From positions 434,001 to 498,000 of the forward strand of contig NZ_ATTE01000001.1 of NCBI RefSeq assembly GCF_000419525.1: DNA of 64,000 nucleotides, given 5' to 3'. The stretch comes from Leucothrix mucor DSM 2157 (lineage in GTDB: Bacteria; Pseudomonadota; Gammaproteobacteria; Thiotrichales; Thiotrichaceae). Of this stretch, positions 1-19,429 are shown piece by piece. The notes below the pieces were generated by a model. That model was given only the letters and a program-made list of their open reading frames with translations, ran no database searches and was not told the origin of the DNA. The position numbers and the translations under genes were made by a program. Within the stretch, counting starts at the first letter, position 1; each line of letters starts with the position of its first letter.

Positions 1-3000
1 GTTGAAGCAGACATCATTAAAGTATTGGCAACTAAAATCTCTACAGGTGATGGTGATCTGAAAGTACTTGCTAGTCGAAATGTCGTATTGTCTGGTGGTG
101 GATTAGTCACTGAAGGTGGAGATCTGACGGTAAGTGCTAATGCTAGTATGAGCATGACTTCGGTCGACTTATCCGGCTCGAGCTGTACGGACGTTGAAGG
201 TAACTTCATTGGTGTCGATTTGGTTAGTGCTTCTTATCTCTCATCTGACGGTGGAGATATTAGGGTCGTTGGTTGTGGTGGTATATCGGGTGATAATAAC
301 GTTGGTGTTCGCTTGGGTAGTACTGGAGGAAAGATTGTCTCTTCCGGCGCAGGAAGTGTTTCAATTGCTGGTCTTGCGGGTACCGGAGGAGAGCTGAATG
401 TGGGCTTGTTGGTTCAGGGAGACCAGAGCTTGGTTCAGGCAGCTGCGGGTAGCATTGATGTCTACGGAGCAGGAAGTAGTCTGAGCACGGGAGACTTTAA
501 CCCTGGCGTTGCGATTCAAAACGGAGGAAGTATTGTATCTAGTGCTTCTGAGCAGCAAGTTGCGACGAATAGTGTTTATGCTAGAGTTTCTGGTGTGGGT
601 GGTATTAGTCACAATGACGATAATCACGGTGTAATCATCAATGGTGATGGTAGTCGCATACACACTGAAGCTGCTAACTTACAGGTTAAGGGTTTCACTC
701 GCGGGTTGAACTTTGGTTCTGCGACAAGTGTGGGTATGGATGTCAATAATAGTGGAGAGGTCAGCTCAACACAGGGCGATATCACTATTGAAGGTGGTAC
801 AGTCAATATTTTGGCAACTAACATCTCTGCGCCTACAAGTGATTTGACTATTCTGGCAACACGCAACCTATTGCTATCGGATGCTAATTTGTCAACTGAT
901 ACAGGCCGTATACATCTCGCCGCTAATATTAATACAGGAGGAACGCCGGAGGATGTTACTGACGATGTTTGCCTAGGCACTAAAGGTAACTTTGTTGGTG
1001 TTGAAATGCTTGCTGGTTCATCAATCAAGTCTGATGATGGTTCTATCTTTGTAAGCGGCTGCGGTGGTACATCAGGAAATGCGAATATTGGTCTGCGCCT
1101 TGCTATTACGGGTGGCGCAATTGCTGCAACAGGTAATGGTTCAGTTTGGGCTAAAGGTATCGCTGGCACTGGAACCAATAATAATATTGGTGTAACCGTT
1201 AAAGGTGCTGATAGTGCTATAACTTCGGCGAAAGGTAGTCTAACCGTGATGGGTTATGGTAGCTCGAGTAGTACAGGAGAGTTTAACCCTGGGCTGGCGG
1301 TACAAGAGCTGGGTACTATTGCATCAACAGGAAATAACATCGTAAACCTGATCGGGGTGGGTGGCAGCAGCCCTAAAACGGATAACCACGGAATCATTGT
1401 TAGTGGTTTAGGCAGTAAAGTCGCTATTAGTAACGCGATGTTGAATATTTCAGCGAGCGGTGGTGGATCTGAATCTAACCCCGGCAGTAATGTTGGTTTT
1501 TATGTAAATGGTGGCGCGACGGTTCAGTCCACAGGCACCGGAAACATTACAATTAGTGCTAATGGTGGATTAGGGTTAGATAATAACGATGGTGTTCGAA
1601 TTGGTGGTGAAACTGATGACGGCGACAGCGCAGAGATTATCTCAAGCCTTGGTAATATCACCATTCGCGGAACGGCTAGCGGCCAAACCAAGGGTGATGG
1701 TAATAAGGGTGTGCGGGTCAATGCTGGTGGTAAGGTGACTGCACTGTCCGATGCTAATATTAATATTTATGGTATGGCTGGTGCAGGAGGTTCTACAAAC
1801 CAAGGTATTCAGGTAGCTGGAGATATTAAAGCAGAGAAATATGCCCAAATTAGTGCTGTGAACGGACACATCGTATTGACGGGTGATGCTAATGATAGTG
1901 GAACCGGCGACGGAAACACGGGTGTTAATATCATGAACTACGGTTTTGTTGAAACAAGTGGTGCTGGTTCTATTACAGTTACAGGAAGTGGCGGTTTTGG
2001 CGGACTAAACCATTATGGTGTTGGTCTTTATAATGGTGGTGAAATACGCACCACAGGTACTGGACAGATTGATATAGATGGTACGGGTGGTACTGGTAAT
2101 TTGGGTAACTCAGGCCTACGCTTGGCAGGTCAGCTACCTGAGGAAAATCCAAATAACCTACCGTTGCTATACGCTAAAATTTCTTCTGCACACGGTGATA
2201 TTAATATCAAGGCTCAGGCAGGGCCTGGTGATGGTGGGGCTGCTCCGACTACGTCTCCATGGGATAAGGAAGATCATGGTATGCAGGGGGTTTATTTAAC
2301 TCATGGTGGTTGGATTGAAGCATTAGGCACTGCTTCTATTAATATCGTCGCTACCGGTGGTGATGGTTATAACGAAACCAATGGCGTGTTTATTGAGGGG
2401 GAAGATAACTTTGGCTCTGAGGAAGGGCATGAGAAAGGGCTAGAGAGTTTCATTACCTCTGTCGATGGAGACATCAATATCGAAGGTTACGGTAGTACAA
2501 AAAATGCTGTAGGTAATAGTCTCGGAGTCGCTTTGTTGTTTGCTCAAATCAATGCAACGGGTTCTGGAAATATTAAGATCAAGGGTGTTGGCGGAAGTGG
2601 TAATAAAAGGCCAACTCATGGTATCCAGATTAATCAGATTGGCTCTCAAATCAGTGCTTTCAACGGTAGTATCGACTTAGTCGGGATTGGCGGGGTAGGT
2701 ATAGCCAATGGTAACGTTGGTGTGAAGTTAGTTGATGGTGGACGTGTCGTTGTTTTGGGTACTAACCCTGATGCATCAATTAATATCGATGGTGTTGGTG
2801 GGGCTGTTGGCCGTAGTGCAAACCATGGTGTCCAAGTCAGTAACGGAACGAGTAGTACTGACCTAACGAGCATAGAGGGCATTAATGGTAACGTTACTGT
2901 TGTTGGTGTTGCAGGAGGTAATGGTCTAGGCGATAGCAACTTTGGTGTAAGCCTTTCAGGAACGACGGCGGGTGGTGGTGGTCAAATCATCTCACATGGC

Positions 3001-4104
3001 TCTGCGAAGCTTTATGTTGTTGGAACCGGTGGAAGTGGGGTTAATAGCAACGGTGGTGTGCAGATAGCATCAGGTGAAAGTAAGATCAGTTCTACCGCCG
3101 GAAACATTGAGGTTGTTGGTGTTGCTAGTAATGATAGTGTCGGTGAAGCTAATGCAGGAGTACTTATTCAAACCGGAGGCAAGATAGAGTCCAATGGCAG
3201 TGCGAGCATCTTTGTTAGAGGTACCGGTGGTTTGGGTGCAATTAATGAAGGCGTTGTGATTATGGATGAAGGTGCTGCAATAGCATCTACTGAAGGTGAG
3301 GTGATTATTACTGCAATCGGGGGTGATCAGGCGGAGGATATTCGCTTTTATGATCCAACCCAAGATGCTGTAAATTATATCGGTGGCCCTGAAGCATCGG
3401 GTAATATTACTCTAAATATCGATACGATTAACTCGGTTCTAGGAAGCATTCAGTCCAAAGGTCAGCTGTTGATCAAGCCAAGAACGGAAGGTTTGACGAT
3501 TGGTTTGGCTGCGGGCGCTGAAGACGGCATTTTGAACTTTGGTGCTTCTGAGTTGACCAGTCTGGTTAATGGCTTTTCAAAAATTACCATTGGTACTGAA
3601 AGCTCTGGCCAGATTACATTGGGAGCACTTGTTTCCAATGACCCAATGGTGTTGAAGGGAAGTAATATTCAAGGTTTAACTACATCTCCGGTACATATCG
3701 ATATGCAAGATGATACGACTATGATCCTATCTGGCCAGGTATCTCCAAATCGTGATGAGTCAGGTCGTTCTGTTGGTCAGTTAGTGGTTAATGGACGACT
3801 GAAGCTTGAAAAGACGGCTAACCTGTTAATGAAGTTTAGAGGACTAAATCCGGGTAATGCCTATGATCAGATAATTGTGAATGGTTTTATCAGTTTGAAT
3901 TCTGCTAACTTGGATGTTACTTTCTTTGGTGGATTTACTCCTCAGCCGGGTGATACCTTTGTGATTGTCAGTAATGATGGTACTGAGCCTGTAGCTGGAA
4001 TATTTGCAGGACTTCCTGAAGGAAGTACTTTAACGGTATCAGGTATTCCGCTGACTATTAGCTATGTTGGTGGTGATGGAAACGATGTTCAGTTAAGTTA
4101 TTGA
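1..4104 (+). CDS. Very large repetitive beta-helix-type surface protein (5' end outside window)
   Basis: The reading frame is open from base 1, so the real start lies upstream and at least 1367 residues are present. The protein is Gly/Asn/Ser-rich and built from about 25 imperfect units of roughly 40-50 residues. Each carries a short N-x-G-V/I-x-L/V motif (NVGVRL, DNHGVII, NTGVNI, NHGVQV) followed by I-x-S-x-G and a G-x-G-G turn, as expected of a parallel beta-helix exoprotein. Residues about 1-260 and 260-480 are a diverged tandem duplication; both halves hold a GNF(I/V)GV segment and a GCGG segment with matching cysteines. The last 100 residues are non-repetitive beta-strand sequence ending in GGDGNDVQLSY. 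No autotransporter barrel is visible, so the secretion route is unknown. It is probably an adhesin or matrix protein; this is inference from composition and repeats. A strong terminator follows. Confidence 0.8.
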   Translation, partial: VEADIIKVLATKISTGDGDLKVLASRNVVLSGGGLVTEGGDLTVSANASMSMTSVDLSGSSCTDVEGNFIGVDLVSASYLSSDGGDIRVVGCGGISGDNNVGVRLGSTGGKIVSSGAGSVSIAGLAGTGGELNVGLLVQGDQSLVQAAAGSIDVYGAGSSLSTGDFNPGVAIQNGGSIVSSASEQQVATNSVYARVSGVGGISHNDDNHGVIINGDGSRIHTEAANLQVKGFTRGLNFGSATSVGMDVNNSGEVSSTQGDITIEGGTVNILATNISAPTSDLTILATRNLLLSDANLSTDTGRIHLAANINTGGTPEDVTDDVCLGTKGNFVGVEMLAGSSIKSDDGSIFVSGCGGTSGNANIGLRLAITGGAIAATGNGSVWAKGIAGTGTNNNIGVTVKGADSAITSAKGSLTVMGYGSSSSTGEFNPGLAVQELGTIASTGNNIVNLIGVGGSSPKTDNHGIIVSGLGSKVAISNAMLNISASGGGSESNPGSNVGFYVNGGATVQSTGTGNITISANGGLGLDNNDGVRIGGETDDGDSAEIISSLGNITIRGTASGQTKGDGNKGVRVNAGGKVTALSDANINIYGMAGAGGSTNQGIQVAGDIKAEKYAQISAVNGHIVLTGDANDSGTGDGNTGVNIMNYGFVETSGAGSITVTGSGGFGGLNHYGVGLYNGGEIRTTGTGQIDIDGTGGTGNLGNSGLRLAGQLPEENPNNLPLLYAKISSAHGDINIKAQAGPGDGGAAPTTSPWDKEDHGMQGVYLTHGGWIEALGTASINIVATGGDGYNETNGVFIEGEDNFGSEEGHEKGLESFITSVDGDINIEGYGSTKNAVGNSLGVALLFAQINATGSGNIKIKGVGGSGNKRPTHGIQINQIGSQISAFNGSIDLVGIGGVGIANGNVGVKLVDGGRVVVLGTNPDASINIDGVGGAVGRSANHGVQVSNGTSSTDLTSIEGINGNVTVVGVAGGNGLGDSNFGVSLSGTTAGGGGQIISHGSAKLYVVGTGGSGVNSNGGVQIASGESKISSTAGNIEVVGVASNDSVGEANAGVLIQTGGKIESNGSASIFVRGTGGLGAINEGVVIMDEGAAIASTEGEVIITAIGGDQAEDIRFYDPTQDAVNYIGGPEASGNITLNIDTINSVLGSIQSKGQLLIKPRTEGLTIGLAAGAEDGILNFGASELTSLVNGFSKITIGTESSGQITLGALVSNDPMVLKGSNIQGLTTSPVHIDMQDDTTMILSGQVSPNRDESGRSVGQLVVNGRLKLEKTANLLMKFRGLNPGNAYDQIIVNGFISLNSANLDVTFFGGFTPQPGDTFVIVSNDGTEPVAGIFAGLPEGSTLTVSGIPLTISYVGGDGNDVQLSY

Positions 4105-5983: not shown

Positions 5984-8900
5984 TTATTCTCTTTCTAAGC
6001 CAATAAGATTTAAGCCACGACTAAAATGTCGCCAAGCTTCTTCAGTTGATAAGGTATGACGTGCAAACGCCGTATAGTTATGGGAGCAGTCTAGCCACTG
6101 CTCATCAGACAGCGCTAGCATTTCCAATACTTGTTGGGCGAATGCTTCCGGAGTGTCTGCGGTTGGTAGCAGGTCATTAATTCCGGGGATCCCTTCAGCG
6201 GCGATGCTGGTGGCCACTAGGGGGATGCCTTTTTGTAATGCCTCCAAGGTCTTGCCTTTAACGCCGGCGCCATATTGTAAGGGGGCGACAACGAGTCTGG
6301 CGAGACGGTACTCCTCGTGCAGGTCATCTTCTGAAATACCACCCAGTAGCGTGACCGATTCATCCGCCATCGCATAGAGTGACTCTGATGGGTTGGCCCC
6401 CACTAAGCGGAAACTTGCCTGAGGTGCGGCCTTTATAACGAAGGGCCACACCTCACTTAAAAACCACGTAACTGCATCATGATTCGGGGCGTGTTGCATG
6501 CCACCGACGAACACGATGCGCTGGCCTTCGGGTGCACGCTTACGGTCCGGACAGCCTGTTTCGTTACAATACAAGGGCAGGTAGCTCACCGTTTCAATGT
6601 TATGTTCCTGTTGCAAGTAATCCGCTTCGAACTGACTTGGAGTATAACTGAAGGCTGCCTGTCGGAAAATATCAATTTCTTCCTGCTCTCTGGCTTTGAC
6701 CTGTTTGGCCTTCTCGGTATCTTGTTGACGCAGGGCTTCACGGTAAGCGCGGAGATTATGCAGATCATGGCAGAAATACAAGACCGGAATTGACGCTTCC
6801 TGACAGGCTTTGGCATGCATCTGATAAATGTGAGGACGATTAATCAGCACCGCATCTAAGTAGTCTTTATGAGCAGTCAGCCAGGCACTCCAGTTTTGCT
6901 CAAAATAATAGATCCCGGGGTAGTAGGTTTCAACGCCCAGCTGTTGCAACTGAGTCGCAAACTGAATTTGCCGCTCATGATCAATAAAGCAAGCGAAGTA
7001 TTTAACGACATAGCCTTTTGATAGCAGTAGCTTGATGTAGGTCAGGGTGTGGCGGGCACCGGCATGACGGTCATATTCCGGCAAATAGTAATCCAGCACC
7101 GCAATAATCTTTTTACCGACACTCCGTTCTCTGGCAAAGAGTAATTGACTGCCATCAACATGCTTGGTTTCCAGCGTAGTTTGCCACTTGTCACGAAACT
7201 TTTGTTGATTAATCACCTGATGATGTTTGATGCCACTGCCAAGGTCGGTACCGTGAGACTTGCCTTCAAAATGAACCACTAAAGAGGCCGGTTGTAGATA
7301 GACCTCCCTGTTGTGATCTCGAGCCTCAAAACACAGGTCGGTATCTTCATAGTAAGCCGGTACAAAGCGCTCATCAAAGCCGCCCAACGTAAGCCAAAAG
7401 TCATGGCGAACGGCAATGGCTGCCCCTGAAATATAATCGGATGGTTTTAGGTAGCTATACTCAGGCAGGGCCGGGTTTTGGTCACGACCATAATTAAGGC
7501 CACCGGCATTCTGCCAAACCACTCCACCCGCCTCCTGCAAAGAGCCATCAGGATACAACAGCTTCGAACCAACAACGGCTGCATTCGGGTGTGTTTCGAA
7601 GGTGTCTATTAACGAAGATAACCAGCCAGGTTGAACTTGAGTGTCGTTATTGAGCAGGACCAGAAACGTTCCCTGCGCCGTCTTTGCAGCATGATTACAG
7701 TTACCCAGAAAGCCCAGATTCTTTGGTGTACGGACCACAATAAGGTGTGGATAATGATCTGCCGCCGCTAAGGTCTCATCCGTTGAACCATCGTCCGCTA
7801 AAATAATCTCATAAGGCGTTTGCTCAGGGTCTGTAAAGTCCGCAATCGCGTTCAGACAAGCACGGGTATGCGCCCATTGGTTATACACCGGAATAATAAT
7901 CGAGACTATTGGCTTCGCCGTCACGGACCAGTCGCGATGCTCAGGCATCGTCGGCGCAATCAATGGACTGAAAAACTCCATGGGTGAAGCAGGGCGGACC
8001 GCTTGATAAGTTTGCTGTTGGTGATGCGCAACGTAAAAGAATAAGCGCTCAATCACATGGGCCAGAGTGCCATTTTTCTGACTATCCTCTGCTGGGAAAT
8101 CAGCCCAGTCCAAATTAGCCTCAAACAACGGCCTCAAGGCCGAGGAGCGGAACCACATCATTGAGCCCGCCGGGAACTCAAGGGGAAACGCCTCCAGTGT
8201 CGTTGCCGGAACCCCCAGACGATCCAACAGAGCCTCACCCTCCGGACGCATATTCTCCCAATGCAAATGATTGCGCAAGGTAGGTAAAGGTGGCGGGTAA
8301 ATAATGCCCAGCTCAGGATTTTGTTCAAACTGATTCAGAATGGCACTCACATACAGCGGGCTATCGAGCAAGTGCGACAAGCAATAGCTAAACCAGCCAT
8401 CCGTCTCACTGCCATACGGGCTCTTCTTAGAATGTAAATGCAACACATAATCATGCGCCAGACACTCTTTCGCAAAGCCCACCACCATCGGTGCAATATC
8501 ACGTCCCTGATTCGGCATCACCCTAACATCTAATGTGCCCAGATTTGGTAACGAGGCTAAGCCTTCGACAATCCGTTGCTGCTGAGGCTCCGAGGGCGTC
8601 GAGATCAAAAGATCAAAGTGGAATGGAATATTAGACAGCCAGTGTTGAAACTCGGGCAACATATCGTCATAGAAGATATGCGCCATGACCGCAATAGAGA
8701 ATGTTTGTGCTGGCAGCGAAGCATAGTGCTGGCCGGTAGGGAGTGCCGGACATATTCTAAGACCATCAGGAGAGGCTCTTAGATTGTTTTGTCTTCCGAT
8801 AAAAATATAGTGAAGTAGCGGGTTGATGTACGAAAGCCCTTCATTGCGAAGTTGTGAAAGATAAAAATAGCTGAAAAATGATTGAGAAGGATTTCTCCCC

Positions 8901-9421
8901 TCTCTTGCTCCATTGCCTACATAGTGAGCTATGGGATCAATGTTTGCTTTAGCAACATCTTGATAGGTATCAAGGTACCAATCTACATCAAATAATCCCG
9001 ATTCTTTTAAGAGCTTGATACTTAATCGCTCATCGGCTTTAGAGACATCGAAGCTGACAGGTAGAAAAATTCTTCCTTCGTTAATTCCGTGCTCAAGGTA
9101 ATGGACTAAAGGGTTTAGGCCTGAGAGTCTAACGTCTGGATAAAGTAGATAGTAAGCTCTGGTCGAGAAAGCTGAGCTCGGGTCATTTTCGTTTATTAAC
9201 CCATATTTGAGAAAGTGTTCGTAGGGAGCATCGATGAGGTTATTTTTAGTACTGTATTTTTTTTGATACCAATCAGCATCAAATAAGCCACTATCCAGTA
9301 TCAGATTTTTATCATCACTTGTGTCTGGTTTGTTGCTAAGTGATGGAGGTGGAGCCTGTTCGTAAGATTTTTTTGAAAATCGTTTTCTTATACGCTGGAT
9401 AAACTTCATGCTTGCTGTCAT
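5984..9421 (-). CDS. Modular glycosyltransferase: DWY repeats + RgpF-like + GT2 + GT4 (repeat copy A)
   Basis: This is an intact 1145-residue protein. Residues about 40-215 hold three copies of a module of the form SGLFDxDWY...YPDV...NP(L/I)xHYxxxGxxEGR. Residues about 230-490 resemble the RgpF/rhamnan-synthesis domain (AVMAHIFYDDMLPEF; NQGRDIAP; HLHSKKS). Residues about 505-760 are a GT-A family 2 domain with VSIIIPVYNQ, the DDGSTD nucleotide-sugar site, LLNNDTQV and an EDTDLC motif. Residues about 790-1140 form a GT-B (family 4-like) domain with VFVGGMQHAPNHDA and a GAGVKGKTLEA donor-binding segment. It probably builds several linkages of the surface glycan. From residue 220 to near the C-terminus it is nearly identical at DNA level to 11540-14277. 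Confidence 0.88.
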   Translation of the reverse strand: MTASMKFIQRIRKRFSKKSYEQAPPPSLSNKPDTSDDKNLILDSGLFDADWYQKKYSTKNNLIDAPYEHFLKYGLINENDPSSAFSTRAYYLLYPDVRLSGLNPLVHYLEHGINEGRIFLPVSFDVSKADERLSIKLLKESGLFDVDWYLDTYQDVAKANIDPIAHYVGNGAREGRNPSQSFFSYFYLSQLRNEGLSYINPLLHYIFIGRQNNLRASPDGLRICPALPTGQHYASLPAQTFSIAVMAHIFYDDMLPEFQHWLSNIPFHFDLLISTPSEPQQQRIVEGLASLPNLGTLDVRVMPNQGRDIAPMVVGFAKECLAHDYVLHLHSKKSPYGSETDGWFSYCLSHLLDSPLYVSAILNQFEQNPELGIIYPPPLPTLRNHLHWENMRPEGEALLDRLGVPATTLEAFPLEFPAGSMMWFRSSALRPLFEANLDWADFPAEDSQKNGTLAHVIERLFFYVAHHQQQTYQAVRPASPMEFFSPLIAPTMPEHRDWSVTAKPIVSIIIPVYNQWAHTRACLNAIADFTDPEQTPYEIILADDGSTDETLAAADHYPHLIVVRTPKNLGFLGNCNHAAKTAQGTFLVLLNNDTQVQPGWLSSLIDTFETHPNAAVVGSKLLYPDGSLQEAGGVVWQNAGGLNYGRDQNPALPEYSYLKPSDYISGAAIAVRHDFWLTLGGFDERFVPAYYEDTDLCFEARDHNREVYLQPASLVVHFEGKSHGTDLGSGIKHHQVINQQKFRDKWQTTLETKHVDGSQLLFARERSVGKKIIAVLDYYLPEYDRHAGARHTLTYIKLLLSKGYVVKYFACFIDHERQIQFATQLQQLGVETYYPGIYYFEQNWSAWLTAHKDYLDAVLINRPHIYQMHAKACQEASIPVLYFCHDLHNLRAYREALRQQDTEKAKQVKAREQEEIDIFRQAAFSYTPSQFEADYLQQEHNIETVSYLPLYCNETGCPDRKRAPEGQRIVFVGGMQHAPNHDAVTWFLSEVWPFVIKAAPQASFRLVGANPSESLYAMADESVTLLGGISEDDLHEEYRLARLVVAPLQYGAGVKGKTLEALQKGIPLVATSIAAEGIPGINDLLPTADTPEAFAQQVLEMLALSDEQWLDCSHNYTAFARHTLSTEEAWRHFSRGLNLIGLERE
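6028..8762. repeat. 2.7 kb direct repeat, copy A
   Basis: This segment is nearly identical in the same orientation to 11540-14277. Identity starts abruptly near the 3' end of the coding region and stops just upstream of the RgpF-like domain, inside the codons for LRICPALPTG. Outside these limits the two genes differ. Confidence 0.93.
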
Positions 9422-11492: not shown

Positions 11493-14400
11493 TTATAAGT
11501 TAGCTTCTAAACCAACAAGGCTCAAGCCACGAGTAAAGTGTCGCCAAGCTTCTTCAGTTGATAAGGTATGACGTGCAAACGCCGTATAGTTATGGGAGCA
11601 GTCTAGCCACTGCTCATCAGACAGCGCTAGCATTTCCAATACTTGTTGGGCGAATGCTTCCGGAGTGTCTGCGGTTGGTAGCAGGTCATTAATTCCGGGG
11701 ATCCCTTCAGCGGCGATGCTGGTGGCCACTAGGGGGATGCCTTTTTGTAATGCCTCCAAGGTCTTGCCTTTAACGCCGGCGCCATATTGTAAGGGGGCGA
11801 CAACGAGTCTGGCGAGACGGTACTCCTCGTGCAGGTCATCTTCTGAAATACCACCCAGTAGCGTGACCGATTCATCCGCCATCGCATAGAGTGACTCTGA
11901 TGGGTTGGCCCCCACTAAGCGGAAACTTGCCTGAGGTGCGGCCTTTATAACGAAGGGCCATACCTCACTTAAAAACCATGTAACCGCATCATGATTCGGG
12001 GCGTGATGCATGCCACCGACGAACACGATGCGCTGGCCTTCGGGTGCACGCTTACGGTCCGGACAGCCTGTTTCGTTACAATACAAGGGCAGGTAGCTCA
12101 CCGTTTCAATGTTATGTTCCTGTTGCAAGTAATCCGCTTCGAACTGACTTGGAGTATAACTGAAGGCTGCCTGTCGGAAAATATCAATTTCTTCCTGCTC
12201 TCTGGCTTTGACCTGTTTGGCCTTCTCGGTATCTTGTTGACGCAGGGCTTCACGGTAAGCGCGGAGATTATGCAGATCATGGCAGAAATACAAGACCGGA
12301 ATTGACGCTTCCTGACAGGCTTTGGCATGCATCTGATAAATGTGAGGACGATTAATCAGCACCGCATCTAAGTAGTCTTTATGAGCAGTCAGCCAGGCAC
12401 TCCAGTTTTGCTCAAAATAATAGATCCCGGGGTAGTAGGTTTCAACGCCCAGCTGTTGCAACTGAGTCGCAAACTGAATTTGCCGCTCATGATCAATAAA
12501 GCAAGCGAAGTATTTAACGACATAGCCTTTTGATAGCAGTAGCTTGATGTAGGTCAGGGTGTGGCGGGCACCGGCATGACGGTCATATTCTGGCAAATAG
12601 TAATCCAGCACCGCAATAATCTTTTTACCGACACTCCGTTCTCTGGCAAAGAGTAATTGACTGCCATCAACATGCTTGGTTTCCAGCGTAGTTTGCCACT
12701 TGTCACGAAACTTTTGTTGATTAATCACCTGATGATGTTTGATGCCACTGCCAAGGTCGGTACCGTGAGACTTGCCTTCAAAATGAACCACTAAAGAGGC
12801 CGGTTGTAGATAGACCTCCCTGTTGTGATCTCGAGCCTCAAAACACAGGTCGGTATCTTCATAGTAAGCCGGTACAAAGCGCTCATCAAAGCCGCCCAAC
12901 GTAAGCCAAAAGTCATGGCGAACGGCAATGGCTGCCCCTGAAATATAATCGGATGGTTTTAGGTAGCTATACTCAGGCAGGGCCGGGTTTTGGTCACGAC
13001 CATAATTAAGGCCACCGGCATTCTGCCAAACCACTCCACCCGCCTCCTGCAAAGAGCCATCAGGATACAACAGCTTCGAACCAACAACGGCTGCATTCGG
13101 GTGTGGTTTCGAAGGTGTCTATTAACGAAGATAACCAGCCAGGTTGAACTTGAGTGTCGTTATTGAGCAGGACCAGAAACGTTCCCTGCGCCGTCTTTGC
13201 AGCATGATTACAGTTACCCAGAAAGCCCAGATTCTTTGGTGTACGGACCACAATAAGGTGTGGATAATGATCTGCCGCCGCTAAGGTCTCATCCGTTGAA
13301 CCATCGTCCGCTAAAATAATCTCATAAGGCGTTTGCTCAGGGTCTGTAAAGTCCGCAATCGCGTTCAGACAAGCACGGGTATGCGCCCATTGGTTATACA
13401 CCGGAATAATAATCGAGACTATTGGCCTTCGCCGTCACGGACCAGTCGCGATGCTCAGGCATCGTCGGCGCAATCAATGGACTGAAAAACTCCATGGGTG
13501 AAGCAGGGCGGACCGCTTGATAAGTTTGCTGTTGGTGATGCGCAACGTAAAAGAATAAGCGCTCAATCACATGGGCCAGAGTGCCATTTTTCTGACTATC
13601 CTCTGCTGGGAAATCAGCCCAGTCCAAATTAGCCTCAAACAACGGCCTCAAGGCCGAGGAGCGGAACCACATCCATTGAGCCCGCCGGGAACTCAAGGGG
13701 AAACGCCTCCAGTGTCGTTGCCCGGAACCCCAGACGATCCCAGAGTCTCCCAATTGCAAGCATGATTGCGCAAAGGTAGGTAAAGGTGGCGGGTAAATAA
13801 TGCCCAGCTCAGGATTTTTGTTCAAACTGATTCAGAATGGCCTCACATACAGCGGGCTATCGAGCAAGTGCGACAAGCAATAGCTAAACCAGCCATCCGT
13901 CTCACTGCCATACGGGCTCTTCTTAGAATGTAAATGCATCACATAATCATGCGCCAGACACTCTTTTCGCAAAGCCCACCACCATCGGTGCAATATTCAC
14001 GTCCCTGATTCGGCATCACCCTAACATCTAATGTGCCCCAGGATTTGTGGGTACGGTGGCGAGCTAAGGCTTCGACAATCCAGTTGGTGGTGGAGCTTCC
14101 GAGGGGCGTCCCGAGATCAAAAGATCCAAAGTGGAATGGAATATTTAGACAAGCCAGTGTTGAAACTCGGGCAACATATCGTCATAGAAGATATGCGCCA
14201 TGACCGCAATAGAGAATGTTTGTGCTGGCAGCGAAGCATAGTGCTGGCCGGTAGGGAGTGCCGGACATATTCTAAGAGCCGATTGAAGGTTTTTGTTGTT
14301 GCTTAAAAAAGCAGGAGCAACGATACCGTCGTATGTTTGATAGAGGTAGGCATCAGGATCTACTGCTTGTTGATCAGCCTGAAGATCTATCATTTGACGT

Positions 14401-14866: not shown

Positions 14867-16507
14867 TTAAAGTATGCCAACAGCACTACTTGCAGCAGCA
14901 ATCTGGAAGATAATCGTGATTATATCCTTAGCGTATTGCATTGATTTAGTATCAACCCTAGGAAAAATAAGTAACTCATCCCCTGGAGCCAGAACAGCGC
15001 CTTGATCAATGATTATTTGTCCATTAGGCTTTCTAATGATAATGCGACGTGCGTCTGCTCTCTCGGTAAATCCGCCGGCTCTAGCGACATAGTCTCTAGT
15101 TGTGGCATTACTAGCAAAGACAAGCGCTTGGGGTATGTTAACTTCACCACTGATGGTTATAACGTCACTACGAAACGGAATAACAATTACATCACCATCT
15201 TCCAAGCGAATATTGGCAATTTGGCCATTCTCGCTGACAACAACTCGACCATCAGGAACTATATTCCGTGCATTTTTTATGAACTCACTTACTAGAGCCG
15301 CTTCCTGTTGTCTTATACTTGCTTCTCCATCTGATTTGGCTGGTGATGTTAAGACGCTTCTCTCCAGCCGATTAATTGACTGTTGTAAGTTGATTTTTTG
15401 TTTCTCAGCAACACTCTTGCGACGAATAAATATGTTATTAATATCTGCTTCATCAGGAGAGATGGCTATGTAGTCAAGGACTTCTTTTAAGCGAGATCCT
15501 TTCTTCGCAGCTAGGTAAGAGTTGCCTAGGTAGCTACCTTCTACGGAAATATCAATCGTGCCACTTTGAGCGTCTGACACAAAGCGTACAGTGTCTCCGT
15601 CACGTAGGGCGGTATTAGCGAATTTACCAATGGGTAAATAAACAGAAAGTGGTCTTTGATTTCTTGTTCCGCTAAGTGCGATGTTTGTTACGCTAGAGTT
15701 CGGCCGAGCAATGTTTATTAGGTCGCGACCTGAACCTTCTTGTCTTGAAAATTCGAATCGGTAGTTTCCTCGCACATCGCCTTCTACATTCACGGTGCTA
15801 CTTTGTGGAGCAACTAAAATAGTATCACCGTTTTGAAAACGAATATTTGGTAGTTGGCCCCATCGTAAAAACGCATATAAATCAACGGTTCCAATGGTCT
15901 GATTCCGCCTTAAGATTCTTATGTTTCGATAGCTTCCCCGATTTGGGTCAATGCCTCCTGCCTGGTGTAAATAGGCAAGAACACTATCTGTTTGTATACC
16001 TGCATATTGGCCTGGGCTAAGAACGGGGCCCGTCACAAATACACTTACAGGTGTCGCAGTTAAGAGATTGACGTAAACATCAACGCCCTGGGTATAGACA
16101 CCTTGTAGCTTTCCTTTTACAAGCGATGAGAGATCTTTTGCTGGGCTTCCGGCTACTTTTACGGCGCCTATTTCGGGAAGAAAGAGATTTCCTTGTGCAT
16201 CAATCACCGACGTTTCATCAGCTTGCACAGCTCCCCAGATATGGAGTGAGACTTTATCACCGGGAACAAGTATGTAGTCAGGGTCAAGGGCATTAGATCC
16301 CTGTGCTGCAAATTTTCCGGTAAAAAGACTGGCACCAAAAGGGCGGTTAAGGCCTCTAAGGCTCTCCGTGTCTGGTATTCCTTCATCGAATGCTTCAGGT
16401 GTTAAACTGTTTTGTGGGTCTGCCGCTTGTATGCTTAAGCACAGGGAAGATAATACAACTCCAGAAATGACTTTCTGGAGTAGCTTTGGTAGGTTTTTAT
16501 AGTTCAC
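14867..16507 (-). CDS. kpsD: Outer-membrane polysaccharide export protein, KpsD/Wza type
   Basis: The product is a periplasmic/outer-membrane export component. It has a signal sequence (hydrophobic VISGVVLSSLCLSIQA), a polysaccharide-export domain at about residues 50-125 (DYILVPGDKVSLHIWG), and SLBB-type beta-grasp segments near residues 150-240 and 430-510 (ISGEVNIPQALVF). The C-terminal segment is amphipathic/hydrophobic. The frame is open to a GTG at 16540. I prefer the GTG at 16507 because GAGG lies 8 bases before it, it follows the kpsE stop by 16 bp, and it puts the signal peptide at the N-terminus. With KpsE it would form the trans-envelope conduit. It ends 2 bp before the next glycosyltransferase reading frame, so co-transcription is likely. 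Confidence 0.87.
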   Translation of the reverse strand: MNYKNLPKLLQKVISGVVLSSLCLSIQAADPQNSLTPEAFDEGIPDTESLRGLNRPFGASLFTGKFAAQGSNALDPDYILVPGDKVSLHIWGAVQADETSVIDAQGNLFLPEIGAVKVAGSPAKDLSSLVKGKLQGVYTQGVDVYVNLLTATPVSVFVTGPVLSPGQYAGIQTDSVLAYLHQAGGIDPNRGSYRNIRILRRNQTIGTVDLYAFLRWGQLPNIRFQNGDTILVAPQSSTVNVEGDVRGNYRFEFSRQEGSGRDLINIARPNSSVTNIALSGTRNQRPLSVYLPIGKFANTALRDGDTVRFVSDAQSGTIDISVEGSYLGNSYLAAKKGSRLKEVLDYIAISPDEADINNIFIRRKSVAEKQKINLQQSINRLERSVLTSPAKSDGEASIRQQEAALVSEFIKNARNIVPDGRVVVSENGQIANIRLEDGDVIVIPFRSDVITISGEVNIPQALVFASNATTRDYVARAGGFTERADARRIIIRKPNGQIIIDQGAVLAPGDELLIFPRVDTKSMQYAKDIITIIFQIAAASSAVGIL

Positions 16508-16523
16508 GATGTTTGCCTCATGC

Positions 16524-17618
16524 CTAACTAAGGTGCTCACGCACTGAAGAAATTATTAAGGATAGCACTCCCCATATCATGAAGCTTGCTAGGAAGAATG
16601 ATACCGCTGAGAGAATACGGTGGGGCTTTAGCGCCTCATCTGGAAGGTGAGGAGGAACAATACGTTCCAAGTAGCGCTGCTTTTGTTTGGATTCAATTTC
16701 CGCCTGCTTTAATGCACTTAGCGCGGTAACATAAAGTTGCTCTGCAAAAGTAAGCTCTGAAGTGAGCCTAGCCGTGTTTTGTACTGCTGAGGCGACTGTT
16801 TTTCCAGCGCCAGCATCAGGGTTTGTCCAGCGACTTTGCTGCACTAGGATTTGGTTTTTAATAGAGTTGATGTCATTGATCAAGGCTCTAACCTTGAGAG
16901 AGTCTTGGCGCATATAGGCGCTTATTTTTCTATATTCAGCTTCCGCAGTAGCTAGTTTTTGTTTCAACTCCGCAACAATACCTTGCTCAGTTTGGGCATT
17001 TTGTTCCACACTGATAACCTTTTCACTTTCGCTGAAAAGTGTGATCTGATTTCTGAGATTGTCCAGTGTGAGCTTGGCATCTTTGGCCTCTTTTTGTGCA
17101 AACTCTAACGCGTCGTCCCTAGCATTGTCAGACATTGTATTAATGAAGGTTTCACTGATTTCTAAGATTTCGTTTGAAATTTTCTGGGCCATTTCTGCTT
17201 CAAATGCGGTTACCTCAAGTATGCTGATACCTGAAGCTCCATCGAATGAGATATTGACGATCGTATTCTCCCAGTAATCTAGAAGGTCTTCATTGGTTGC
17301 ATCCTCTGGCAATCTGGCCCACCAATCATGAGTAGTGCTTGAGTACTCTTTACGTAAACTGATTCTCTGGTTAATCAGGCGTAAGAAGTCGTGAGAGTTT
17401 ATATAGTTTTGAACTGTTAGGGAGTCTGTTCCAGATGAGGCCATCCCAGTAAGCCCCGTTACCATCCCTAATACATCAACATTGCTTTGGCTGCTTCCTT
17501 GTATAATATAGCGGGACTCAGAAACATATTGATCACTAGCATACTTATAAAAGTAGGTTGAAACTAATGCACTAGGTATTAGAACAAAGAAAAAAAATGT
17601 AAATTTATTAAAGGACAT
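16524..17618 (-). CDS. kpsE: Capsule export inner-membrane/periplasmic protein, KpsE (PCP) type
   Basis: This 364-residue protein has one transmembrane helix near each end (about residues 7-25 and 335-357) and a long periplasmic, largely coiled-coil middle (about 165-320). That is the architecture of polysaccharide co-polymerase proteins of ABC-dependent capsule systems. The N-terminal periplasmic part has the usual YVSESRYIIQ-type segment. It links the inner-membrane KpsM transporter with the KpsD outer-membrane channel. It starts 1 bp after the kpsT stop codon, so the two genes are coupled. Confidence 0.87.
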   Translation of the reverse strand: MSFNKFTFFFFVLIPSALVSTYFYKYASDQYVSESRYIIQGSSQSNVDVLGMVTGLTGMASSGTDSLTVQNYINSHDFLRLINQRISLRKEYSSTTHDWWARLPEDATNEDLLDYWENTIVNISFDGASGISILEVTAFEAEMAQKISNEILEISETFINTMSDNARDDALEFAQKEAKDAKLTLDNLRNQITLFSESEKVISVEQNAQTEQGIVAELKQKLATAEAEYRKISAYMRQDSLKVRALINDINSIKNQILVQQSRWTNPDAGAGKTVASAVQNTARLTSELTFAEQLYVTALSALKQAEIESKQKQRYLERIVPPHLPDEALKPHRILSAVSFFLASFMIWGVLSLIISSVREHLS

Positions 17619-17619
17619 T

Positions 17620-18303
17620 CTAAATGGTGCCTGTGTTGTTGCGATGAAAGCGTCGGTACTTTAGAAGGCCTGCTTCAATATCATCAAAGAGGATCGCAGC
17701 CCCTTTGTGAATTACCATTGCTCTATCAGTATAGTTTCGTACAAGCTTCACAGAGTTAGATGTCAAAATGAGTGAGGCATCCTTTGTCTTTTCTGTGAAT
17801 GCATCCATGCATTTTTTTTGGAACTCAGGAGAGTTCCCCGTTGGGATTGGGTTGATAACTAAATAGGTATCGAACCTCATTGCAATACTTAGTGCAAAGG
17901 CAATATTTTTACCAAACCCATCCTGATATGTTTTAGTTGGAAGCTTGAGTGCCTTATCCGCTTCCAGAAAGTCTTTTATGAAAGCGATGATAGTTTTAGG
18001 TTGCTGTCCGTAGAGCTTGCAAATAAAGCGAATATTCTCCTCGCCAGTCAGATCACCATGAAAGCTACCAGTGTCACCGATTGGAGGAGAAAATGAACCG
18101 CGTCTTATAATCTTCCCTGTTGTTGGTAATTCAGAGCCTGAAATAAGTTTTAGCACTGTTGGAACACCAGCACTTTTTACTCCTAGTAAACTAACTCGAT
18201 CACCTTCATTGAAGATAAAAGAGGCATTCAGAAGAACATGTTTTTTCTTATGAGTGCCTGGTATTGGCTTTAGCTTGGTGACATTGTCAAAGGATATAAT
18301 CAT
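17620..18303 (-). CDS. kpsT: KpsT-like ABC subunit with degenerate ATPase motifs (putative pseudo-ATPase)
   Basis: The protein has the normal KpsT length (227 residues) and normal position between kpsM and kpsE, and collinear similarity to KpsT is clear (GSFHGDLTGEENIRF, RFDTYLVINP, EFQKKC). Catalytic motifs are altered. The Walker A loop at residues 41-49 reads GVKSAGVPT, with Val47 for the essential Lys and Pro48 for Ser. The signature at about 126-130 is YQDGF instead of YSSGM. The Walker B Asp-Glu pair is Asn151-Pro152. The switch His is Asn183. The Val codon was checked on the DNA (18163-18165). There is no stop or frameshift. As built it should not hydrolyse ATP, so export would need another ATPase or this subunit has another role. 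The start overlaps the kpsM stop (ATGA). Confidence 0.88.
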   Translation of the reverse strand: MIISFDNVTKLKPIPGTHKKKHVLLNASFIFNEGDRVSLLGVKSAGVPTVLKLISGSELPTTGKIIRRGSFSPPIGDTGSFHGDLTGEENIRFICKLYGQQPKTIIAFIKDFLEADKALKLPTKTYQDGFGKNIAFALSIAMRFDTYLVINPIPTGNSPEFQKKCMDAFTEKTKDASLILTSNSVKLVRNYTDRAMVIHKGAAILFDDIEAGLLKYRRFHRNNTGTI

Positions 18304-19130
18304 TCGCGGGCTTTTTCCTCGGTGAGTCTCTGCATAGCTAAACCTATAAACAATGCTGTGAGGGTAAAGCCAAGGAGGTATTTTAAGTCGACCAGACTAC
18401 TTTCCCATGTACGGTAGAATGCACTGCGTGACCACTCGGTGATGTGTAATACAGGGTTATAATAAAGAATAGCCATGACTTCAGGCGGAAAGCGCTCTGA
18501 CGCGACAAAAAACACTCCCGACATAATAAATAAAGGGCGCGTGAGTAGACCCCAAAACTTTGGATATAAGCTGAATCGTGCGGCAAGTGCTGAATTAATA
18601 AGCCCTATTGCAAAACCAAGAGTAATCGACACAATTATCATTAGGAGGATGTCAAGCAATGAGTCGTAGGAGTAATCCCAGTAGCCAAGCAGCCCAACAC
18701 CAGTGAAAATAACGACTCCAGCAATCAAAAGTATCGAGGATTCTATTAAGAGGTTTGCAATAATTGTATCGAAGGGGGTTATAAAGGGGTGAGTCATCAG
18801 GCCTTTACTTGTTCCTTGATTATTCATCACTCTGGTTGCCATCATTATGCAAAAATTGTAAGGAATGATAGCTGTTGCTAAAAACAGTACAATACTGCCG
18901 CCTAGAGGGTTATTCCTCCCAATTACAGTGAACAGTAATGAAATAAAAAGAATCTGTGATAGCGGCTGACCGATAGCCGACAGGAAACCCATCTTATTAT
19001 TACCGAGCTTTATCAGCGTCTCTCGATAAACGATGGCTTGAATAACTCGAACCTGTATGCTTAGCGCATTTAAAAATAGAGCCATTACTAGGGAGTTTGA
19101 ACGACTAATATCGGTGCTGCTTCTTGCCAT
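18300..19130 (-). CDS. kpsM: Capsule ABC transporter permease, KpsM type
   Basis: This is an integral membrane permease of the ABC-2 type with about six hydrophobic segments. It has a cytoplasmic N-terminus with YRETLIKLGNNKMGFLSAI, corresponding to the KpsM amphipathic start, and the typical NPVLHITEWSRSAFY segment near the C-terminus. It should move the finished polysaccharide across the inner membrane with KpsT. The frame is open to 19184. I chose Met at 19130 because it begins MARSS, like known KpsM proteins; Met at 19085 (2 bp after the upstream lipoprotein stop) is also possible. No good ribosome-binding site marks either. Confidence 0.85.
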   Translation of the reverse strand: MARSSTDISRSNSLVMALFLNALSIQVRVIQAIVYRETLIKLGNNKMGFLSAIGQPLSQILFISLLFTVIGRNNPLGGSIVLFLATAIIPYNFCIMMATRVMNNQGTSKGLMTHPFITPFDTIIANLLIESSILLIAGVVIFTGVGLLGYWDYSYDSLLDILLMIIVSITLGFAIGLINSALAARFSLYPKFWGLLTRPLFIMSGVFFVASERFPPEVMAILYYNPVLHITEWSRSAFYRTWESSLVDLKYLLGFTLTALFIGLAMQRLTEEKARE

Positions 19131-19429
19131 TTTCCATCGACAAAGCAAGCAGCCCTCGGGGTATCTAAAGACAGAGTTTGACACCTGTTGCCATTAGCTG
19201 AGTAATAGCTAAAACGACCCATAGAGCCGTTATTACCACTTGAGGTAAGCTGCAATCTACTCGCCACTGCTGTAGCCAGTGGAGCTCTTCTTGGCGCGAT
19301 GAAACTGTACTTCATGGGCTTTGATGTTGTGAGTGGGTCGGCTGGTTTGAAGAAGCGCGCCTTAATAGCACTACAGCCATTGAGTGATATCACTGCTATA
19401 AGGCTGAATAGGATTTTTCTTTTATTCAT
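19088..19429 (-). CDS. Small putative lipoprotein at head of capsule export operon
   Basis: The protein has 113 residues. Its N-terminus KRKILFSLIAVISLNGC has a charged start, a hydrophobic stretch and a lipobox ending at Cys19, so it should be a lipoprotein. The mature part is small, with two further cysteines (NRCQTL and AACFVDG) that could form a disulfide. I do not recognise the family. It is the first gene of the minus-strand run leading into kpsM-kpsT-kpsE-kpsD and overlaps or abuts kpsM, so a role in capsule assembly or export is plausible but unproven. Confidence 0.7.
   Translation of the reverse strand: MNKRKILFSLIAVISLNGCSAIKARFFKPADPLTTSKPMKYSFIAPRRAPLATAVASRLQLTSSGNNGSMGRFSYYSANGNRCQTLSLDTPRAACFVDGKWQEAAPILVVQTP

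Follow-up and report, generated by a model that had tools for sequence, protein, structure and literature searches.

The kpsT-like gene and its ATPase motifs

The stretch of DNA analysed here (the window, 64,000 nucleotides of Leucothrix mucor DSM 2157, one of a group of filamentous marine bacteria, contig NZ_ATTE01000001.1) carries an operon read on the minus strand in the order small lipoprotein, kpsM, kpsT, kpsE and kpsD. Its kpsT-like gene (17620..18303, minus) encodes a putative pseudo-ATPase of 227 amino acids (aa) in which no nucleotide-binding or catalytic motif is intact, in a frame that runs uninterrupted from an ATG beginning at 18303 to a TAG ending at 17620. The protein is collinear across its full length with the KpsT proteins of five other genera of the family (32–45% identity), and its closest relative in the PDB is the KpsT of 8tsh/8tsi (E 8e-40). 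It belongs with KpsT/CtrD/BexA both by sequence clade and by its place beside kpsM, kpsE and kpsD.

Alignment with intact KpsTs (24 of the 26 read in other genera, with L051 omitted for an overlong start and L055 for truncation) confirmed what a preliminary description of this DNA had claimed, namely that the gene is real and full-length and that all its ATPase motifs are broken. The Walker A motif of the family, G-x-N-G-A-G-K-S-T, has become G41-V-K-S-A-G-V47-P48-T49, with Lys and Ser gone, the signature YSxGM reads Y126-QDGF, and the H-loop His is Asn183, all as previously listed. The Walker B Asp-Glu, formerly placed at Asn151-Pro152, aligns instead with Ile150-Asn151, and the loss of the A-loop Tyr (Lys12) is an addition to the earlier list. 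Each motif is broken, which is not to say that each residue is replaced, as the family residue is retained at six of the 18 conserved ATP-site columns (G41, G46, T49, G129, G156 and S182). The match to PF00005 (ABC_tran) is restricted to residues 26–68 and does not reach the cut-off (20.5 bits vs 25), and the residues that define this family (Walker A Lys, signature, Walker B Glu and H-loop His) are here V47, YQDGF, N151 and N183. Judging by the alignment, the protein belongs by descent to the KpsT clade and stands outside the ATP-binding cassette (ABC) ATPases by its function-defining residues, those required for export-powering ATP hydrolysis being missing from the predicted sequence.

Distribution of the gene and of its motif loss

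KpsE and KpsT of this clade are present in three of seven Leucothrix genomes, those of the window, L. arctica and one metagenome-assembled genome (MAG), and neither was found in the other four (completeness 97%, 100%, 56% and 69%). Genes of PF05159 (KpsC/KpsS) are confined to the same three genomes, KpsC occurring in all of them and KpsS in the window's genome and L. arctica; KpsS was not found in the MAG, which is 64% complete. The capsule system seems to be present or absent as a block within Leucothrix, with the caveat that two of the genomes without it are incomplete (G005 and G006, the others being G002 and G003).

The loss of the ATPase motifs is common to all three operons, and all three frames are open. 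Walker A Lys, signature Ser, Walker B Glu and H-loop His are lost in each, the Walker A segment reading GVKSAGVPT in the window, SVYERSSKS in L. arctica and GKNEAGTSD in the MAG. Walker A is intact in all 26 KpsT-type genes read in the five other genera. A class-wide survey covered 370 genomes, of which 160 had a match (the best eight candidates at most scored per genome), and 29 loci were read among the stronger matches, including the window itself and one sister-genus KpsT already counted. In the 28 loci other than the window, both Walker A and a (Y/F)SxGM signature are retained throughout; simple patterns for Walker B or the H-loop had no hit in some of them. Assembly error or chance was rejected as the cause of the motif loss, given that two further Leucothrix operon genomes, which are separate assemblies, show the same loss.

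The preliminary description had proposed that homologues be compared for conserved substitutions as opposed to scattered inactivating mutations, and the outcome is mixed: the loss is conserved, but the replacing residues differ among the three sequences. Because the trio shares new residues (an invariant Phe replaced by Asp, and Ile, Lys, Leu and Ile at four other columns), has a long KpsT stem (4.17 changes per column vs 0.33 for KpsE) and is set apart by a branch with supports of 98/97, 95/95 and 97/97 (in trees of 28, 17 and 14 rows, the 17-row tree being unrooted), it looks as though a single ancestral loss preceded the split of the three species.

Constraint on the kps genes and their neighbourhood

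In other genera KpsT exceeds KpsM and, where present, KpsE in identity in 63 of 66 within-genus pairs (KpsD being outside this count). In Leucothrix it is the least identical subunit in three pairs out of three, pairwise identities being 34% for KpsT, 42–51% for both the lipoprotein and KpsM, 58–67% for KpsE and 67–68% for KpsD. When the operon was compared with that of 25 other-genus genomes (G009 omitted; KpsE in 22 and KpsD in 15 of them), the conserved columns kept by all three Leucothrix numbered 138/157 in KpsD, 25/31 in KpsE, 11/25 in KpsM and 12/67 in KpsT. A second measure with control trios gave 0.88, 0.70, 0.44 and 0.20 for the same four proteins, and the control trios, from genera g7 and g3, kept 0.67–0.88 for every kps gene. 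The constraint on KpsD is ordinary, that on KpsE at most slightly low, that on KpsM lower and that on KpsT far lower.

What is left in kpsT does not describe a pseudogene, since the three frames are open, omega = 1 is rejected (2dlnL 132, a rejection and not an estimate of omega), and in a neutral simulation without indels three stop-free frames were very unlikely at the observed divergence (per-lineage identity of 70%, estimated from 34% observed vs ~70% expected). Sixty-eight columns are conserved in at least 23 of the 24 intact KpsTs, and 18 of them were chosen as ATP-site columns from general knowledge of the motifs; all three Leucothrix keep 0/18 of these vs 13/50 of the others. Taken singly, the L. 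arctica protein keeps 0/18 vs 21/50 (p = 0.0006) and that of the window 6/18 vs 32/50 (p = 0.03). Catalytic residues are lost while other sites are constrained, as in a pseudoenzyme, a contrast that is invisible in the MAG sequence alone.

Two blocks of KpsT, with boundaries drawn after viewing the alignment, are under full constraint: codons 76–99, covering the Q-loop and the next helix (18007..18078, minus), and codons 51–67, after Walker A (18103..18153, minus). The first is identical in the Leucothrix trio at 16 of 24 residues (14, 16 and 9 in three intact trios) and the second at 9 of 17 (10, 10 and 6), whereas Walker A (1/11), the signature (3/12), Walker B with the D-loop (1/14) and the H-loop (0/9) all fall below the intact trios. 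The suggestion in the preliminary description of a selected pseudo-ATPase is borne out by these blocks, together with the loss in all three operons, the open frames and the rejection of neutral codon evolution. In ABC ATPases the helix after the Q-loop forms the docking groove for the permease, and the retained surface fits a subunit that may still hold KpsM without any need for ATP. A structure model made with 22 relatives (20 of them intact) was confident and had KpsT as its best match, so that the dead KpsT likely keeps an ABC fold, as far as a model leaning on intact relatives can indicate.

The kpsM-like permease gene (18300..19184, minus) has an open reading frame of 294 aa, and its Leucothrix homologues begin some 20–30 codons later. 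Arg35 and Trp45 (numbered on chain 8tsh_C, i.e. the published number + 3, by residue matching) are found in S. thermodepolymerans and in all 25 KpsMs that stand beside intact KpsTs; in the window, L. arctica and the MAG, Arg35 is Lys, Glu and Glu and Trp45 is Ser, Ala and Ala. According to the part of the S. thermodepolymerans study consulted (PMC11041684), changing Arg35 to Lys or Ala, or Trp45 to Phe or Leu, disrupts export in every case. Arg89 and Arg94, also essential there, are not generally conserved in this family and were excluded from the count, and by the same token essentiality in S. thermodepolymerans KpsM need not carry over to Leucothrix. The losses in Leucothrix KpsM cluster in the interface helix and transmembrane helix (TM) 1 (14/30 cells kept), and the part from TM5 to the C-terminus is kept in full (18/18). 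The loss of the KpsT motifs coincides with that of KpsM Arg35 and Trp45, and the capsule-linker genes are still present and open.

Among the other members of the operon, the kpsE-like co-polymerase gene (16524..17618, minus, 364 aa) is under near-ordinary constraint and the kpsD-like export gene (14867..16540, minus, 557 aa, Poly_export and SLBB) under ordinary constraint; one more Poly_export gene is present in the window's genome. The operon is headed by the lipoprotein-like gene (19088..19429, minus, 113 aa), which has no Pfam family and whose homologues adjoin kps genes in several other genera. In both the window and L. arctica the operon adjoins three genes read as transketolase, pgk and pyk. 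A broken glycosyltransferase gene (11493..13825, minus) has its RgpF, GT2 and GT1 pieces spread over three open but unconnected frames, and an intact RgpF-GT2-GT1 gene of the same make-up (1144 aa) lies at 5987..9421 (minus). Decay does occur in the operon region, though in a gene that has an intact likeness. Recruitment of KpsE and KpsD by a neighbouring Wzx/Wzy cluster was considered and found unsupported, the 33–50 kb part of the window reading as a cell-wall and division cluster. An open frame of 1359 aa at 25..4101 (plus) has no Pfam family.

The capsule-linker locus lies to the left of the window. There, between KpsS-like and KpsC-like genes, is a type I polyketide/fatty-acid synthase of 2514 aa (KS-AT-DH-ER-KR-ACP; contig positions ~390000–406433), accompanied by aminotransferase, short-chain dehydrogenase, formyltransferase-like and sulfatase-fold proteins, the L. 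arctica counterparts being at loci L138 and L139. The layout of this locus resembles that of the rhizobial rkp-1 K-antigen region, and synthase, aminotransferase, dehydrogenase and sulfatase-fold genes also occur in five genomes of genus g7 and one of g8. In Leucothrix, KpsC has an N-terminal GT29 (sialyltransferase-like) domain fused to it (L136:13369–16434 minus, L139:2222–5230 minus and L140:10974–13994 plus). This extension was rejected as a Leucothrix change matching that of KpsT, as free-standing homologues exist in g7 kps loci and the fusion itself in one g3 genome.

Interpretation and comparison with known systems

We favour, at a probability of roughly 0.55, a selected pseudo-ATPase that arose in the ancestor of the operon-bearing Leucothrix and serves as a structural partner of KpsM in the KpsE cage. 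An orthologue of kpsT, the ATPase gene of group 2 type capsule exporters, would have turned into a pseudo-ATPase in that ancestor; its product would fold as an ABC domain without hydrolysing ATP, stay on the cytosolic face of KpsM through the conserved block of Q-loop and helix, and hold the two KpsM subunits in their folded state and in place within the KpsE cage. On this view KpsM-KpsT would be the structural centre of the KpsE-KpsD conduit, independent of ATP, and passage of the polymer through the inner membrane would take a route other than KpsM-KpsT. There is good support for the pseudo-ATPase and for selection on it; the scaffold role, which we infer as the probable one, is the least certain step. 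A more tentative proposal, somewhat short of even odds, is that ATP use by the ABC pair has ceased altogether, leaving a pseudo-transporter retained as the heart of a conduit across the envelope, with some other route feeding or driving it.

Several observations weigh against this interpretation. Only three genomes carry the dead kpsT, one of them the MAG of 64% completeness, whose KpsT keeps the Walker B Asp, shows a mild Glu to Asp change beside it and has its losses spread evenly (7/18 ATP-site vs 21/50 other columns, p = 1.0). The order within the trio differs between trees, and long branches weaken all of them. The dN/dS comparison (nonsynonymous to synonymous rates) proposed in the preliminary description did reject omega = 1 and gave no dN/dS value, dS being saturated and omega hence not estimable. 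A structure model from the three Leucothrix sequences alone was poor (predicted local distance difference test, pLDDT, 39.7). Published KpsM-KpsE contacts, in the part of the source consulted, use TM3, TM6, the interface helix, TM4 and TM1 and not the retained region from TM5 to the C-terminus, and parts of the interface helix are changed in Leucothrix KpsM. The conserved columns kept in the linker genes (68/76 in KpsS from two genomes, 205/322 in KpsC from three and 913/1353 in the polyketide synthase from two) have no control trio as a norm; they come from sequences covering >60% of the query, with six other-genus rows for KpsC and the cut polyketide synthase of the MAG dropped. Finally, the glycosyltransferase gene that directly follows kpsD is broken up over different frames, and the earlier premise that decay would leave frameshifts needs a caveat.

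Slow decay of a dispensable exporter, in which KpsT and then KpsM drifted, the frames stayed open through short time or luck, and KpsE and KpsD serve something else, is in our opinion unlikely. It would accommodate the constraint lost in KpsT and, less, in KpsM, the broken glycosyltransferase gene, the even loss in the MAG protein and the four of seven Leucothrix that show neither KpsE nor PF05159 genes (two of these being only 56% and 69% complete). The time has nevertheless not been short, as the loss seems older than the split of three species whose KpsTs are ~34% identical; three open frames are improbable under neutrality; omega = 1 is rejected; and two KpsT blocks are fully constrained, with KpsD and KpsE near ordinary constraint.

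Alternatively, the exporter might run on another ATPase that docks KpsM in trans, KpsT being a regulatory or assembly subunit. The linker enzymes, with KpsC in three and KpsS in two of the three carriers, imply that something should be exported, and other ABC ATPases are numerous in the window's genome (at least 130 PF00005 matches among the 150 candidates scored out of 233). The preliminary description had likewise envisaged a functional ATPase encoded elsewhere, but no second KpsT or Wzt was recognised in the seven Leucothrix genomes with a profile of intact KpsT at E <= 1e-15. Apart from the three dead genes, the hits of the profile at that threshold were four 272-aa frames, each in a different Leucothrix genome (2.4e-16 to 7.3e-16); the frame of the window's genome (5.4e-16), the only one of the four typed, is nearest to taurine/nitrate import ATPases and adjoins an NMT1-like binding protein. 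Between the KpsS gene and the operon there was no PF00005 match among the 150 of 233 candidates scored, and the P-loop pattern found only two glycosyltransferase frames (430–434 kb being outside the scan). KpsM itself is moreover without two residues essential in the studied homologue, and we regard an ATPase in trans as distinctly improbable.

Two further explanations have very little probability. The frame might be kept only for translational coupling, in that a stop would cut off translation of kpsE, with the KpsT protein serving no purpose of its own. Spacing is indeed tight, kpsM and kpsT overlapping by 4 bases and kpsT and kpsE being 1 base apart in the window and 4 bases apart in L. arctica, yet the latter gap is 25 bases in the MAG, and coupling would not conserve amino acids, whereas omega = 1 is rejected and block 76–99 is conserved as in intact relatives. 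The ABC pair might also have been refitted to a channel or to transport not driven by ATP (powered by proton-motive force, or pushed by chain growth) for a changed glycolipid. The KpsM residues near the Kdo sugar (Arg35 and Trp45) changed together with KpsT; KpsE and KpsD are kept, and the linker genes are open. The GT29-like fusion of KpsC, however, is not tied to the KpsT loss.

Least probable of all is the earlier idea of one half of a heteromeric capsule transporter with an intact KpsT as the other half: degenerate sites are well known in heterodimeric ABC exporters, and a composite ATP site joins the Walker A/B of one subunit to the signature of the other (both from the consulted part of PMC7756269), but no intact partner was recognised in the seven genomes at E <= 1e-15, and because one polypeptide has lost both its Walker/H-loop and its signature sides, no canonical composite site would arise even by pairing with an intact KpsT.

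A selected pseudo-ATPase holding KpsM would matter for how such exporters are understood. ABC exporters are defined by their use of ATP, and a single Walker B change in KpsT (E151Q) abolishes secretion by the S. thermodepolymerans KpsMT, according to the part of PMC11041684 consulted. The Leucothrix lineage would separate two roles that are difficult to tell apart in other ways, the powering of transport and the retention of KpsM within the cage, and its sequences would be a natural set showing which KpsT surface is needed without ATP. Among the matches listed in the open-licence literature on degenerate or inactive KpsT, on ABC pseudo-ATPases and on Leucothrix capsules, there was no report of such a case.

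The KpsTs of the sister genera (24 sequences) share both gene neighbourhood and tree with Leucothrix KpsT and have intact motifs. Next closest by sequence and fold are Wzt and TagH/TarH of O-antigen and teichoic acid exporters, which bear the motifs; no ATPase of the Wzt/TagH/TarH type was recognised in the seven Leucothrix genomes at E <= 1e-15. The degenerate site of heterodimeric ABC exporters, extreme in yeast Pdr5, is alike in having Walker A Lys, Walker B Glu, H-loop His and signature replaced, and its sequences are described as not deviating between orthologues, unlike the replacing residues in Leucothrix, which differ in all three (PMC7756269, consulted in part). Heterodimeric exporters, in the portion of the source consulted, retain a second canonical site, whereas the single-gene and presumably homodimeric Leucothrix ATPase has none. 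Pdr5 itself reportedly keeps one canonical site. From the KpsMT-KpsE-KpsD system of S. thermodepolymerans (PDB 8tsh/8tsi/8tsl) that of Leucothrix differs in the broken motifs of KpsT and in a KpsM without Arg35 and Trp45, and if the ABC pair indeed makes no use of ATP, Leucothrix would offer a naturally occurring example of an ABC exporter that has become a structural part, independent of ATP, of an export system still at work.
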